A stretch of 64,000 nucleotides of DNA, from assembly GCA_016928835.1 (NCBI GenBank), contig JAFGJW010000005.1, forward strand, positions 1 through 64,000, given 5' to 3'. Numbering within the stretch: the first letter of the stretch is position 1; each line of letters starts with the position of its first letter. The DNA comes from Candidatus Woesearchaeota archaeon. Lineage in GTDB: Archaea; Nanobdellota; Nanobdellia; Woesearchaeales; GW2011-AR15. Positions 2-7,042 of this stretch are shown piece after piece. A model generated the notes under the pieces. It worked only from the letters and a program-made list of their open reading frames with translations. It made no database searches and was not told the origin of the DNA. The translations under genes were made by a program, and so were the position numbers.

Positions 2-3000
2 CCCAATGTTTCAGCACTGAATAGTCCAGCAAACAACTCAAACCTGTCAGGCAGCATAGTAGAATTCAACTTCACATCATATGATAACCTCGATAATATA
101 TTGAATTATACCTTGTACTTGGACAACTATGCAAACTCCACCGGACTCACCCTTGGCAACAATACAACTACTAACTTCTCAGTTAATGATTTCCAAGAGG
201 GGACATTCCACAACTGGACTATACAAGTAACAGACAATGTTGGAAACACAGCGAATTACTCGGGGATGTTTTTCTTTTATATGAATACCACCTACTCCAA
301 CCAGCCACCAACTTCAAATATTATCAGCCCTGATAATGATGGCTGGATAAGTGACAGCACGCCTGAACTTAGCTTCATTCTAACAGACGATCTTGACATT
401 TATATTAATTATACACTTTTCATTAATGATATAGCCAACTACTCAAATTCGACAGCAAACGCTACACCAACTTATCTTAATCTATCCAGCCTTGGAGAAG
501 GCAGCAATACTATAATTGTTGAGGCTCTGGACAGCAGCAATGAGAGAATAAATTCTTCAATTCTGACATTGAACATAGATACCATACCACCTAGTTCCAC
601 TCTCCATTATCCTATAAATGATACCTGGACAAATGATGACACAATCCAGTTCAATTTTACCTTGATGGACAATTTGGATTCAGAATTGGACTACACTCTT
701 TATCTTGACAACTCTCCAGTGTCCTATGGCTCTGCACAAAATAACTCAATCAAGCTTGTTAATTATACTTTGCCTGACGAAGGATTTTACTTAATTAAGG
801 TGGAAGCAAGAGACCAGGCGAATAACACCTTTAATTCAACCGAGACATTAGTTGTGATGGATGGAAATGACCCCTCATCTACTATTTCTTCGCCTTCTGA
901 TAATTCCTGGATAACAGACGCAACGCCTGAAATTATTTTTATATTAACAGATGATTTTGATCCTGTTCTTAATTATACTGTCTTTGTTAACAATGTATCA
1001 ACAGAGTTTGGTTCAGCATTGAATAATACTCCTACCTCTACTAATCTTACCTTATCCGAGGGAACCTTTAATATAATAATTGAGGCAAGGGATAATGCAA
1101 ATGCAAGGCAGAACTCAACTCCAATCACAATATTTATTGATAACAACACCCCAAGTTCAACAATCAATACTCCCTCAAATCTCACTTGGATAAGCGATAT
1201 AACTCCTGAAATCAGCTTTACTCTTACAGATAGTATGGACTCCATAATAAATTACTCAGTTTTTGTAGACGGCTCGATTAACAGTATTGGCTCTGCGAAC
1301 AACAATACGCCAACATATATTAACCTCTCAACTGTAACAGAAGCGCAACACACTCTTTATGTGGAAGCAAGAGATGAAGCAGATCAAACCTTCAATTCTT
1401 CTGTAATTATAATCACTACAGATGTTTCTGCGCCTGCAGTCAGTAGTCTAAATTCTCCTGCCAATAACACAAATATCAGCTCAAGTGTTATATTCAACTT
1501 CACTTCATATGACAACCTTGACTCAATACTCGATTATACTCTATATCTGAACTCTACAATAAATGAGACAGGAAGCACTGCGGGAAACGATACTACAACA
1601 TCATTCACAGTGTCAGGTTTTGAGACTTTTGGCGCTATCTATTACTGGACAATTGAAGTTAGGGATAATGCGAGCAATGCAGCCAATTACTCAGGTGTGC
1701 ATTATTTTGAAGTATATGATGCGCCCCCGAACACTGCGCCCAATATAACTGAGATTAATGACTCTGATAATGATGGAAATATTGAAATTAGCTGGACTGC
1801 AGATCCAAATGCTGATTACTACAGAATTTACAGGTCTTTATCCAGTATCACAGACGCAACGAGCTTAACAGCACTTGCCACAACCACAGCATTAGCTTAT
1901 GAAGATAATACAACAATACACGATAATACCTATTGGTATGCTGTCACCTCTCTGGATTCTGCCTTGAATGAGAATAAATCTGTTGTTTCTGCAAGTTATA
2001 ATGCTACTGCAAATGATACTATCTTACCAAGGCTACCTGCAAGTTTTGATGCAACAAACCTCAGTGATGGTTCAATAGCCCTCTCCTGGAGCCAAGTCCT
2101 CTTTGATGTCAATGATAATGCAGACACCAACATTACCTACAGGATTTATAGAGGAATAAATATTACAGGCCTTTTCAATGTATCTAACCTGTCTTACATA
2201 ACAAGTACCGCCCTATTTAACTACACAGACACTAATATAACCACGGACTATAATTATACATACGCAGTGACTTCATTGGATGATGCTGGTAATGAAAATA
2301 CTTCAATAGACTCAACCTATCAAGATATTACTGCAACACCATGCGTCAACGGATGGTCAGATTGGTCTGACTGGGGTGCTTGCTCCGGAGGCACTCAATA
2401 CAGAACCAGGACAAGAACATGTTACGGCGGCGGTTTGACCAGTGAAGAGGAGTCTCAGTCATGTGATACTGGTGACGATGATGGGGGGAGAGGAGGGAGA
2501 AGCGGAGGTCCAGGTCCAAGTATTTCATTGCCCAGTGCAATACATGAGTGGACCTTGCTTAATCCAGGCGCTGAAATCTCAATGAAGATTAACAACTCAC
2601 AGATAGGGATAATAAATATCTTTTTTAGTGTTTCCAACCAAGTTAATGATGGAAAACTTACTGTTCAGAGATTATCTGGAAAACCAGCTGCAGTCTCTCA
2701 TGAAATAAGTGGAAAGGTTTACCAGTACCTTAAGATAGATCAAGAGAATCTCGAGAACTCGGTGACAAGTTCATTCAGAATAAGGTTTAAAGTTGAGAAA
2801 GGGTGGCTTGAAGAGAATGGCGTGAACAGCAACAATCTTGTTCTTAAAAAGTACAGTGAAGAATGGAATGACTTGCCTACAAATAAGCTCAACTCTGACT
2901 CAGACTATGTATACTATGAGGCCATAACTTCAGGATTCAGCTACTTTGCAATAGCAGAAAAATCTCAGGTGACGACTTCAACCGAAGTTGCTGCAACCTC

Positions 3001-3304
3001 AACAACCTCAACCACAACAACACTTACAGAAACTGTTACGCTGTCTACAACTACAACAACTACTCCCAAGCGAGCGGAATTCCTTCATTTCTTATTAGGC
3101 TATATCTCACAGAAACTTAACATAATCTTCATAACACTTGCGCTGATGCTGGTGACAATGATATCATCATATATCTTCATTGTGCAGAAAAAGAGATACG
3201 ACCTGGAACAAGAGGATTTTGATATGCTGAAAGCGCATATGGAGACTCAAGATAGATTAGAGAAAATAAGGGAGAAACTAGAGAACATTGATAAAGAAAA
3301 GTGA
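2..3304 (+). CDS. Large surface/S-layer-like protein (5' partial): tandem Ig/FN3-like repeats, TSP1-like segment, PGF-pre-PGF-like region, Thr-rich stalk, C-terminal TM
   Basis: Frame is open from base 2 upstream of the listed ATG at 101; repeated 'SP.D..W..D.TPE..F.LTD..D..LNYT.FV' units; 'WSDWSDWGACSGGTQYRTRTRTC'; hydrophobic segment near the C-terminus. Confidence 0.85.
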   Translation, partial: PNVSALNSPANNSNLSGSIVEFNFTSYDNLDNILNYTLYLDNYANSTGLTLGNNTTTNFSVNDFQEGTFHNWTIQVTDNVGNTANYSGMFFFYMNTTYSNQPPTSNIISPDNDGWISDSTPELSFILTDDLDIYINYTLFINDIANYSNSTANATPTYLNLSSLGEGSNTIIVEALDSSNERINSSILTLNIDTIPPSSTLHYPINDTWTNDDTIQFNFTLMDNLDSELDYTLYLDNSPVSYGSAQNNSIKLVNYTLPDEGFYLIKVEARDQANNTFNSTETLVVMDGNDPSSTISSPSDNSWITDATPEIIFILTDDFDPVLNYTVFVNNVSTEFGSALNNTPTSTNLTLSEGTFNIIIEARDNANARQNSTPITIFIDNNTPSSTINTPSNLTWISDITPEISFTLTDSMDSIINYSVFVDGSINSIGSANNNTPTYINLSTVTEAQHTLYVEARDEADQTFNSSVIIITTDVSAPAVSSLNSPANNTNISSSVIFNFTSYDNLDSILDYTLYLNSTINETGSTAGNDTTTSFTVSGFETFGAIYYWTIEVRDNASNAANYSGVHYFEVYDAPPNTAPNITEINDSDNDGNIEISWTADPNADYYRIYRSLSSITDATSLTALATTTALAYEDNTTIHDNTYWYAVTSLDSALNENKSVVSASYNATANDTILPRLPASFDATNLSDGSIALSWSQVLFDVNDNADTNITYRIYRGINITGLFNVSNLSYITSTALFNYTDTNITTDYNYTYAVTSLDDAGNENTSIDSTYQDITATPCVNGWSDWSDWGACSGGTQYRTRTRTCYGGGLTSEEESQSCDTGDDDGGRGGRSGGPGPSISLPSAIHEWTLLNPGAEISMKINNSQIGIINIFFSVSNQVNDGKLTVQRLSGKPAAVSHEISGKVYQYLKIDQENLENSVTSSFRIRFKVEKGWLEENGVNSNNLVLKKYSEEWNDLPTNKLNSDSDYVYYEAITSGFSYFAIAEKSQVTTSTEVAATSTTSTTTTLTETVTLSTTTTTTPKRAEFLHFLLGYISQKLNIIFITLALMLVTMISSYIFIVQKKRYDLEQEDFDMLKAHMETQDRLEKIREKLENIDKEK

Positions 3305-4457: not shown

Positions 4458-5702
4458 TTAAAATTCATCAGCAGTCATGATCTTAACTCGGGTTTGGCTA
4501 TCTTTTACTTTTGTATCCATTGCGACAAGATAGTTGACATTTGCTTTTTCTGATATCTCAATCAGATTTTTGTCTATAATCCCATCAAATACAATTGCAT
4601 ATACCCCGCTGCTGAGACTTTTCAAAGTGGAGTGCAGCTCAGATATGGGTACTTTTCCAAGTATATTGAGCGAGTTATCCAGCACATAAGCACCTCTCGT
4701 GCCTATGAGATCTTCTAACATGTCCCCAAATCTGTGTTTCTCCTCTTCACTTAACTCCTTGGTGTCTCTTTTTTGTTGCGGTTTGCCAGTACTTGGTTTT
4801 CTTCTTGACTCATCTCTAATCTGCTCTTTTCTGATGCTTCTTTTATCAGAATGTTCTCTCTTTTGTGAAGGAGATAATTCCATCTCCATTTGTTCAGCTG
4901 AGACCCTGCTCCTTAAAGCTTTATGGATTTCTTTTTTTGTTATCTCTTCTACTTCTTTTCCATCAGGTGCTCTGCATACATAGTCAATGTCTGTGACACT
5001 CATTAGCTCCTGCAATATCAAATCTCCTCCTCTGTCGCCGTCAACAAATGCAGTAACGACCTTCTTTTTTGAAAGGTCAACAATCTCAGGGGGTACTGAA
5101 GTGCCGTTAAGAGCGATAGCATTTTTTATGCCGTGCTTAAGCAAATTAAGTACATCAGCTCTTCCCTCGACAACAATGATTTCGTCAGATTCGTCAATCC
5201 CCGGTCCTGATGGCAGCCTTCCTTTTCCGAATTCCTGGATCTCCATAACCCTAACACTATAAGCTACCTCGTCACTCAATTCCTGAGAGTCTGGCATTAC
5301 AGTGTCCATTAACTGTTTCAGCAGTTCCTTTGCTCTGTCTATTACATAGTGTCTCTTTGATACTCTTACGTCCTCAATATTGTCCACATGAATTTTTGCA
5401 TTGCACGGGCCGATTCTCTGAATTATCTCAAGCGAGGCTCCTACAATTGCGGTCTCTGCCTTGTCCAGGCTTGAAGGGATTATTATCACCCCTTGAGTTT
5501 TTCCGCTTCTTGTCTCTGTCTCGACTTCAATACGACCGATTCTACCAGATCTCTGAAGCTCTCTTAGTTCAAGCTCGCTGCCCAGCAGACCTTCTGTCTG
5601 CCCAAAGACAGCACCTATCACATCAGGTCTGTCTACAACTCCTTCTATGTTGATTGATGCATGAATTATATACTTAGCTGATACTGGGCTTATTTTTCCC
5701 AT
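4458..5702 (-). CDS. dnaG: Archaeal DnaG-type primase (TOPRIM)
   Basis: 'AKYIIHASINIEGVVDRPDVIGAVFGQTEGLLGSELELRELQ'; TOPRIM 'IIVVEGRADVLNLLKHGIKNAIALNGTSVP...FVDGDRGGD'. Confidence 0.95.
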   Translation of the reverse strand: MGKISPVSAKYIIHASINIEGVVDRPDVIGAVFGQTEGLLGSELELRELQRSGRIGRIEVETETRSGKTQGVIIIPSSLDKAETAIVGASLEIIQRIGPCNAKIHVDNIEDVRVSKRHYVIDRAKELLKQLMDTVMPDSQELSDEVAYSVRVMEIQEFGKGRLPSGPGIDESDEIIVVEGRADVLNLLKHGIKNAIALNGTSVPPEIVDLSKKKVVTAFVDGDRGGDLILQELMSVTDIDYVCRAPDGKEVEEITKKEIHKALRSRVSAEQMEMELSPSQKREHSDKRSIRKEQIRDESRRKPSTGKPQQKRDTKELSEEEKHRFGDMLEDLIGTRGAYVLDNSLNILGKVPISELHSTLKSLSSGVYAIVFDGIIDKNLIEISEKANVNYLVAMDTKVKDSQTRVKIMTADEF

Positions 5703-5827
5703 TTTAATAACCTCCTATTTTTCTCAATACAAGAAGGAGCATATCTTACTCAGTCTAATCCAATTTATTGCCTTTGTCTTTTGTGAACTGAGGAGTGTCA
5801 TAGTAAATTCCTTCTATGTATTGGTTA

Positions 5828-6075
5828 CAGAACAAGCAAATTTACAATATTTTATCTTTGTTGGATTTACTTAGTTTCATTCTCAATAAAAGTGAAATGA
5901 TGATAATAATTTACTTGTTCTGGATAATGTCGCCCAGACACCAACCCTCAAGCTCATTGCTTGTTCATCCGTGAGCTCCATTGAGTAACGCTCGTGCCGG
6001 GCTTGTATATGTAAGTGTCTTGTGTCAGTTGGATGAGCAGTATTCTGCCCACACAAGGACCTTATTTACATATAC
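5828..6075 (-). ncRNA. Candidate structured non-coding RNA, unknown family
   Basis: Stem I 6005-6014/6066-6075 with inner stems 6019-6025/6051-6057 and 6035-6040/6045-6050; stem III 5828-5842/5908-5922; G.U wobbles appear only on the minus strand; TATA-like element (ACTTTATATATTAA, minus) about 25 nt before stem I. Confidence 0.55.
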
Positions 6076-6196: not shown

Positions 6197-7042
6197 ATGA
6201 GGCTGGCTAAATATTGGAAAACATCTTCTTATACTAACAAAGGGATGTTAATTGGTGCTGCCATTTCATTACTTCTGGTTTTAATATTAATTATCTCATC
6301 AGAAAGCAATATTAAAGTTTTAGATAGACTTGGCATTTATTACATATATGTTACTATTCTTGGTGCCCTTGTATTCTGTCCAAAAACATCTAATGCTGTA
6401 ACTCGTCAGTTTTGCAGACCTAGTTGTTATAAATACATCATACTTCCTTGCCTGATATTATGTATTGGTGTGTTTATTGGTGCATTAGTTGGTCTGTTGA
6501 TTGATACAAGGAAGGGAATAAAAAAGAAAGAAACCTATTCAAATGTCTTACCAATTAAAAAATTAGTTATTTACAGTATAGCTACATTAGGTTTTTATAA
6601 CCTCTACTGGTATTACAAAAACTGGCAACTTCTGAAAAAAGCTGGTGATGACATTAGACCAGTTTGGAGGACGTTTGGGTTATTGGTGCCAATTGTTAGC
6701 TATTGGTTCATTTATGATCAGATCAAAAGGATTCTTAGGATTGCACAGGAGAAAAGGTATAAGTCGAAAGCTGATGCTGTTCGATTAATTGCCATAATAT
6801 TTGTGATAAAAAGCCTTGACAGAATCGCTTATAAAGTATCAGACTCATTTCCAATTGCGGGTGATATCCTGGGAATGATCTCATTAATCTTAATGGTTGT
6901 ACCGTTGGCCTCAGTCCAAATAGCCTTTAATTACTATTGGGAGAAAACACAAAAACTGCCAATAAATTCGAAATTTTCTATAAAAGATTATTTTATTGTG
7001 GTTGCAGGATTACTTATTCTGGCCTTGACTTTTATATCTTGA
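6197..7042 (+). CDS. Multi-TM membrane protein, DUF4234-like
   Basis: Several hydrophobic helices; 'LVIYSIATLGFYNLYWYYKNWQ' motif. Confidence 0.55.
   Translation: MRLAKYWKTSSYTNKGMLIGAAISLLLVLILIISSESNIKVLDRLGIYYIYVTILGALVFCPKTSNAVTRQFCRPSCYKYIILPCLILCIGVFIGALVGLLIDTRKGIKKKETYSNVLPIKKLVIYSIATLGFYNLYWYYKNWQLLKKAGDDIRPVWRTFGLLVPIVSYWFIYDQIKRILRIAQEKRYKSKADAVRLIAIIFVIKSLDRIAYKVSDSFPIAGDILGMISLILMVVPLASVQIAFNYYWEKTQKLPINSKFSIKDYFIVVAGLLILALTFIS

Follow-up and report, generated by a model that had tools for sequence, protein, structure and literature searches.

H/ACA guide RNAs are poorly conserved in sequence and hence are hard to find. In Haloferax volcanii, the H/ACA motif Hvo2 guides the formation of Psi1956 and Psi1958 of 23S rRNA, equivalent to E. 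coli positions 1915 and 1917 (PMC4652768, PMC2584109). One Hvo2 pocket serves both uridines, and the published models contain two alternative registers as well as a third target residue that stays unpaired (PMC4652768, PMC2584109), as does hairpin II of the RNA described below. In Pyrococcus abyssi, L2672 is a tested H/ACA target (PMC4652768, PMC2584109), and in Nanoarchaeum equitans an H/ACA sRNA of 159 nt with two hairpins is encoded between NEQ389 and NEQ392 (PMC3491384). Kink-turns also occur in the 5' part of protein-coding transcripts, namely, in the archaeal mRNA leaders bound by L7Ae (PMC5539422).

Here we consider a double-hairpin RNA encoded on the minus strand (5928-6075) of the window, that is, of the whole 64,000-nt stretch of a Candidatus Woesearchaeota archaeon genome that was analysed; a third conserved hairpin (5828-5922) is situated between this RNA and dnaG. 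With a probability of about 0.9, it is a two-hairpin H/ACA guide co-transcribed with dnaG, with hairpin II directed to the decoding bridge, helix 69, of 23S rRNA and the hairpin I family directed to the A-loop. The computed basis of this reading comprises structure, covariation, target complementarity, guide-target covariation, synteny and the promoter position.

Hvo2 and hairpin II would share the target loop, helix 69. Unlike Hvo2, with which the comparison is by description and not by sequence, the woesearchaeal guide lies in the putative dnaG leader and has a 5' guide that fits the ACUCUC or AUUCUC form of helix 69 found in its own class. The N. equitans sRNA also comes from a DPANN archaeon, has two extended kink-turn hairpins separated by ACA, and is preceded by its own TATA box (PMC3491384), but linkage to dnaG is not described for it; here, too, descriptions and not sequences were compared. 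In contrast to the L7Ae-bound leaders, the kink-turn in our case is a part of a full guide hairpin with complementarity to rRNA. By arithmetic from the correspondence of P. abyssi U2669 to E. coli U2552, L2672 is equivalent to U2555, the same A-loop position as that predicted for the hairpin I family. Yeast snR10, also a guide for this position, and the P. abyssi guides are found in gene contexts unrelated to that of the dnaG-linked hairpin I.

Structure and covariation of the RNA

A preliminary description of the locus had proposed a structured minus-strand RNA of about 250 nt upstream of dnaG. This RNA is confirmed as real: all of the described stems are present, the homologues covary, strongly so in hairpins I and II, and the minus strand folds far better than by chance (z = -5.27; none of 100 shuffles did as well), the fold of the plus strand being weaker (z = -3.83). 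The argument for the minus strand drawn from G.U pairs also held, as the U.G pair of stem III becomes A.C when read on the plus strand. The block 5828-6075 divides into three distinct units, namely, the two H/ACA hairpins and a leader hairpin; a fourth hairpin (5725-5824) comes next on the same strand, and then dnaG (4458-5702). The latter is an ORF encoding the archaeal DnaG, an exosome subunit with a Toprim domain (Pfam Toprim_4, E = 1.8e-9), with a Shine-Dalgarno sequence AGGAGGT at 5716-5710. On the plus strand, divergently from the RNA, a 281-aa protein is encoded at 6197-7042, which apparently spans the membrane and has no Pfam match.

The TATA-like element noted about 25 nt before stem I reads CTTTATATATT (6104-6094, minus strand), the predicted 5' end being at 6075. 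Hairpin I (6004-6075) is closed by the lower stem GTATATGTAA/TTACATATAC (6075-6066 with 6014-6005), contains the internal hairpins as originally described and the 3' guide ACAC in its pocket, and ends with an ACA box (6006-6004). Hairpin II (5928-6002), the conserved core of the RNA, corresponds to the middle domain GCCCGG...CTGGGC (6002-5932). It has the lower stem GCCCGGCAC/GUGUCUGGGC, the 5' guide GAGCGUUA (5993-5986), the 3' guide GGUUG (5946-5942), the upper stem CUCAA/UUGAG, the kink-turn GGA/AAUGA, and an ACA box (5930-5928). The likeness to H/ACA RNAs was missed at first, since the consensus is visible only with homologues, which expose the kink-turn, an ANA box following each hairpin, the spacing of 15-17 nt, and the complementarity of the pocket to 23S rRNA.

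Apart from the copy in the window itself, a BLASTN search over 60 relatives yielded 17 real homologues, with a common core GCCCGNCACGAGAGUACUCAAUGGAGCU...AAGCNAUGAGCUUGGGAGUUAGUGNNNCGGGC, from which we built the covariance model R1 (hairpin II). This model matches 244 of the 288 genomes of the order and, in a phylum-wide draw that included other orders of the class, 193 of 279; the searched genomes were drawn from well over 100 genera. A scan of all GTDB species genomes with a DNA pattern produced 36 loci; almost all of their records are titled Woesearchaeota or Nanoarchaeota archaeon, and on this basis we take the order to be Woesearchaeales. One contig with the woesearchaeal RNA and an archaeal dnaG, JAFCCF010000002.1, is titled Candidatus Aminicenantes bacterium, the bin likely being misnamed or contaminated.

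The plan of hairpin II, considered under the H/ACA definition of PMC4652768 and PMC7991803, includes a 9-bp lower stem, the pocket, a kink-turn (tandem G.A, 3-nt bulge, G-C/C-G) and an ANA box; in the window it scores 72.6 bits with R1. In the alignment of 84 sequences fitted to the covariance model, 96.5% of the pairs are standard and two-sided changes are observed at 17 of the 20 pairs, with 165 two-sided-change cells vs. 36 in shuffles and 27-42% paired in the slid controls. For the lower stem alone the pairing is 98.5%, with two-sided changes at all nine pairs, and an independent MAFFT alignment (n = 17) agrees with the covariation. The kink-turn has the form GGA/NNUGA with G-C and C-G in the C-stem, its GA/UGA being almost invariant. 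The hairpin is followed by ANA in 73 of the 84 sequences (ACA, n = 56; AUA, n = 13; AAA, n = 4) and by NCA in the remaining 11. The distance from the closing pair to the box, with strict Watson-Crick closing, is 17 nt in 80 of 84 sequences and 16 nt in the window; 17 nt is one above the published 14-16 and becomes 16 if an A.A or A.G layer stacks. The GA stem, counted by hand in the alignments of both hairpins, has nine layers, or ten with one non-Watson-Crick closing layer, the published range being 8-11, with 10 in productive folds (PMC4652768). A pairing CAAGC/GCUUG, favoured by energy folding, was dropped, as it is broken in several relatives, and CUCAA/UUGGG was adopted.

Hairpin I occurs only in some lineages, being restricted to a part of the Woesearchaeales. 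In the MAFFT alignment of 25 sequences, 87.4% of positions are paired, with two-sided changes at 14 of the 18 pairs. The lower stem is 9 bp long, the distance from the closing pair to the ANA box is 15 nt in 24 of 25 sequences, inside the 14-16 nt rule, and the box is ACA in 18 of 25. Nearly all sequences contain the kink-turn GAGC/GCNNUGA, the window being an exception.

Predicted targets in 23S rRNA

The consensus strands of hairpin I, AUGGGUC and ACACUC, complement the 23S A-loop GGGUGU-[UC]-ACCCAUU with 13 pairs, one of them G.U. The same site was obtained in three genomes, and for most parsed hairpin I guides the A-loop is the first among all uridines of the genome's own 23S rRNA; shuffled guides reach the A-loop score in two cases of 300. 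The hairpin I family would guide modification of U2555 (or U2554; E. coli numbering assigned by motif).

The window's own hairpin I retains the 3' guide, but its 5' guide matches at three base pairs only; in its target scoring the A-loop ranks second. Given this partial match and the absence of the kink-turn consensus, it is probably a decayed copy of the A-loop guide. The hairpin I model R2, whose training set includes the window sequence, matches the window at 39.4 bits as its sole match in the genome, and hence no other A-loop guide was found there with this model.

For hairpin II, we scored each genome's own guides on the aligned 23S rRNAs, and the top column was in helix 69, GUAACUA-U-A-ACUCUC, with a mean score for U1917 of 17.6 vs. 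14.2 for the next separate site (n = 8 genomes). In Woesearchaeales, the guide GAGAGUA faces ACUCUC in the rRNA (guide G with rRNA C), whereas in the other orders of the class the guide GAGAAUA faces AUUCUC (guide A with rRNA U). At the switched position the guide and the rRNA agree in all genomes in which both could be read (n = 18); the G/A switch itself may represent only one or a few evolutionary events. When a single hairpin II guide is scored over the whole 23S rRNA, 203 of 300 shuffled guides reach the observed best score. As a lone guide is thus too short for significance, the assignment rests on the comparison between genomes, from which hairpin II almost certainly guides pseudouridylation in helix 69, at U1915/U1917 (E. 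coli numbering). In the window, the register GAGCGUUA/GGUUG fits U1915. In 16S rRNA, no convincing target was found.

The dnaG leader and competing explanations

Among the distinct homologues examined, 84 of 85 have dnaG as the next downstream gene, in the same orientation and at a distance of about 170-650 nt. In one relative (G001), the bin contains two dnaG genes with the RNA upstream of each, reflecting either a duplication or a mixed bin. Only one copy departs from the linkage, an additional one in the window's own genome (G000:C16:46948-47026), flanked by rad50 and a gene for an antiporter. The RNA there occupies 2949-3085, minus strand, of the segment G000:C16:44000-51000. It has kept the pocket and gained a different hairpin I; by inspection, it has no GAACAAG stem of hairpin III. 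Its pocket ACUCACU/ACGUUC (minus strand) has GAACG-[UU]-GUGAG as the best candidate in 23S rRNA (own position 2688), with a score not beyond that of shuffled guides.

In most of 31 sequences, the motif TTTAWA peaks 25-39 nt before hairpin I, and in relatives without this hairpin 25-34 nt before GCCCG. No TATA peak was observed before the dnaG start codon in the relatives scanned for TTTAWA, and a Shine-Dalgarno-like motif precedes dnaG in 75 of 84 cases. As the TATA box is found before the RNA and none is enriched before dnaG, the guide and dnaG probably share one transcript, the guide being a part of the dnaG leader.

We infer the following sequence of events. The TATA box at 6104-6094 would drive transcription of the guide and dnaG together, with the guide forming the 5' part of the leader, and an RNP, either processed or formed in place, would be assembled from this transcript. 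Each hairpin would be bound by Cbf5-Nop10-Gar1-L7Ae, with L7Ae on the kink-turn and Cbf5 on the ANA box and the lower stem; Cbf5 is encoded in the genome (TIGR00425, 417 bits, contig C16). The two strands of the pocket would pair with 23S rRNA, placing the target uridine in the active site of Cbf5, so that hairpin II would direct pseudouridylation of helix 69 at U1915 and/or U1917.

Between the guide and dnaG, hairpin III (5828-5922) has the 15-bp stem CAGAACAAGTAAATT/AATTTGCTTGTTCTG (5922-5908 with 5842-5828) and a loop with AUCAUCAUUUCAC. We rejected it as a third H/ACA unit, as it has neither a regular ANA box nor a pocket. Its stem AGRRCAAG/CUUGUUCU recurs in 76 homologues and shows both compensatory and G.U changes. 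The 3' arm is more conserved than the 5' arm, which tolerates A-to-G substitutions resulting in G.U, and this suggests that the sequence of the 3' arm itself matters. Among homologues, hairpin III is situated at very different distances from the start codon. The motif WUCAY is overrepresented in the leader (346 observed vs. 122 expected; window 5703-5925 and its equivalents in 84 homologues), and neither the region upstream of the promoter nor the reverse-complement motif shows such an excess. Our guess is that hairpin III and the WUCAY clusters form a protein-binding element for regulation or processing. Hairpin IV (5725-5824), with the predicted 14-bp fold CAAUACA-U-AGAAGGA/UCCUUCUUGUAUUG, precedes dnaG in the window; at its site, several relatives with long spacers have by eye a hairpin of unrelated sequence, sometimes with AUCAU.

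The position of the RNA directly upstream of dnaG in nearly all homologues could also mean that it is a purely cis-regulatory leader (a riboswitch-like element, or one under autoregulation by DnaG, L7Ae or the exosome), its H/ACA features being a likeness only. Such a leader would agree with dnaG having no TATA box of its own, with the conserved hairpin III and WUCAY clusters, and with the reported regulation of archaeal mRNAs by L7Ae via kink-turns (PMC5539422). However, a pocket complementary to 23S rRNA and covarying with its target is not expected of a cis element, the rad50-side copy has kept its pocket away from dnaG while acquiring a different hairpin I, and hairpin I is gained and lost by lineage like guide modules, which makes the purely cis-regulatory explanation very unlikely. 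We would give still less credence, close to none, to a C/D RNA or to a housekeeping RNA, be it a divergent RNase P RNA, an SRP RNA or another, as might be suggested by the length, the TATA box, the near-universal presence, and weak Rfam matches to C/D snoRNAs (E of 2-10). These matches are at the level of chance, and several fall outside the RNA or on its other strand; moreover, Rfam 15 gave no family at the gathering threshold and nothing meaningful at permissive thresholds. RNase P and SRP RNAs are refuted, since the genome encodes both elsewhere (128.5 and 126.7 bits, respectively) and neither in the window; in this part, unlike that concerning H/ACA, the preliminary description, which had matched the RNA to none of the three, stood. 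C/D RNAs on the opposite strand were rejected as well, the RTGAW motif not being enriched there.

The remaining alternative retains the guide and adds a second role: assembly of the H/ACA RNP, or occupancy of its pocket, would also control dnaG, coupling rRNA modification to the supply of the exosome. The linkage to dnaG throughout the class, seen in genomes from well over 100 genera, points in this direction, as do the conservation of hairpin III between the guide and dnaG together with its absence from the dnaG-independent copy, and the properties of DnaG, which belongs to the exosome, binds rRNA and makes its tailing possible (PMC4227792). On the other hand, a shared promoter alone could explain the linkage, and the variable distance of hairpin III from the start codon speaks against the ribosome-binding site being directly masked. 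On balance, we consider control of dnaG by the guide possible but rather doubtful, and retain the H/ACA guide co-transcribed with dnaG as the preferred reading.

Significance of the guide family

Both target sites were known before, as were H/ACA guide RNAs and the proteins that act with them. The open-licence literature searched mentions neither this RNA nor any H/ACA RNA linked to dnaG. What is new is the RNA family in this archaeal class, with a model invisible to Rfam and near-absolute linkage to dnaG, and also the conserved leader hairpin with clustered WUCAY motifs. The family would provide a class-wide DPANN guide for the near-universal pseudouridines of helix 69, the evidence being guide-target covariation, and the covariance model can be used to annotate hundreds of genomes.

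It is unexpected that the guide should be linked to dnaG, which encodes an exosome subunit, and not to a ribosome gene; this arrangement allows a connection of rRNA modification with RNA turnover to be tested directly. As archaeal DnaG binds rRNA and enables its tailing within the exosome, a functional link of the guide-dnaG locus to rRNA maturation is plausible. More speculatively, and with the odds in our view against it, dnaG mRNA may be a class-wide dual-function molecule, carrying an essential guide in its leader, with RNP assembly, hairpin III and the WUCAY motifs regulating DnaG. If true, such an mRNA would tie ribosome modification to RNA turnover.
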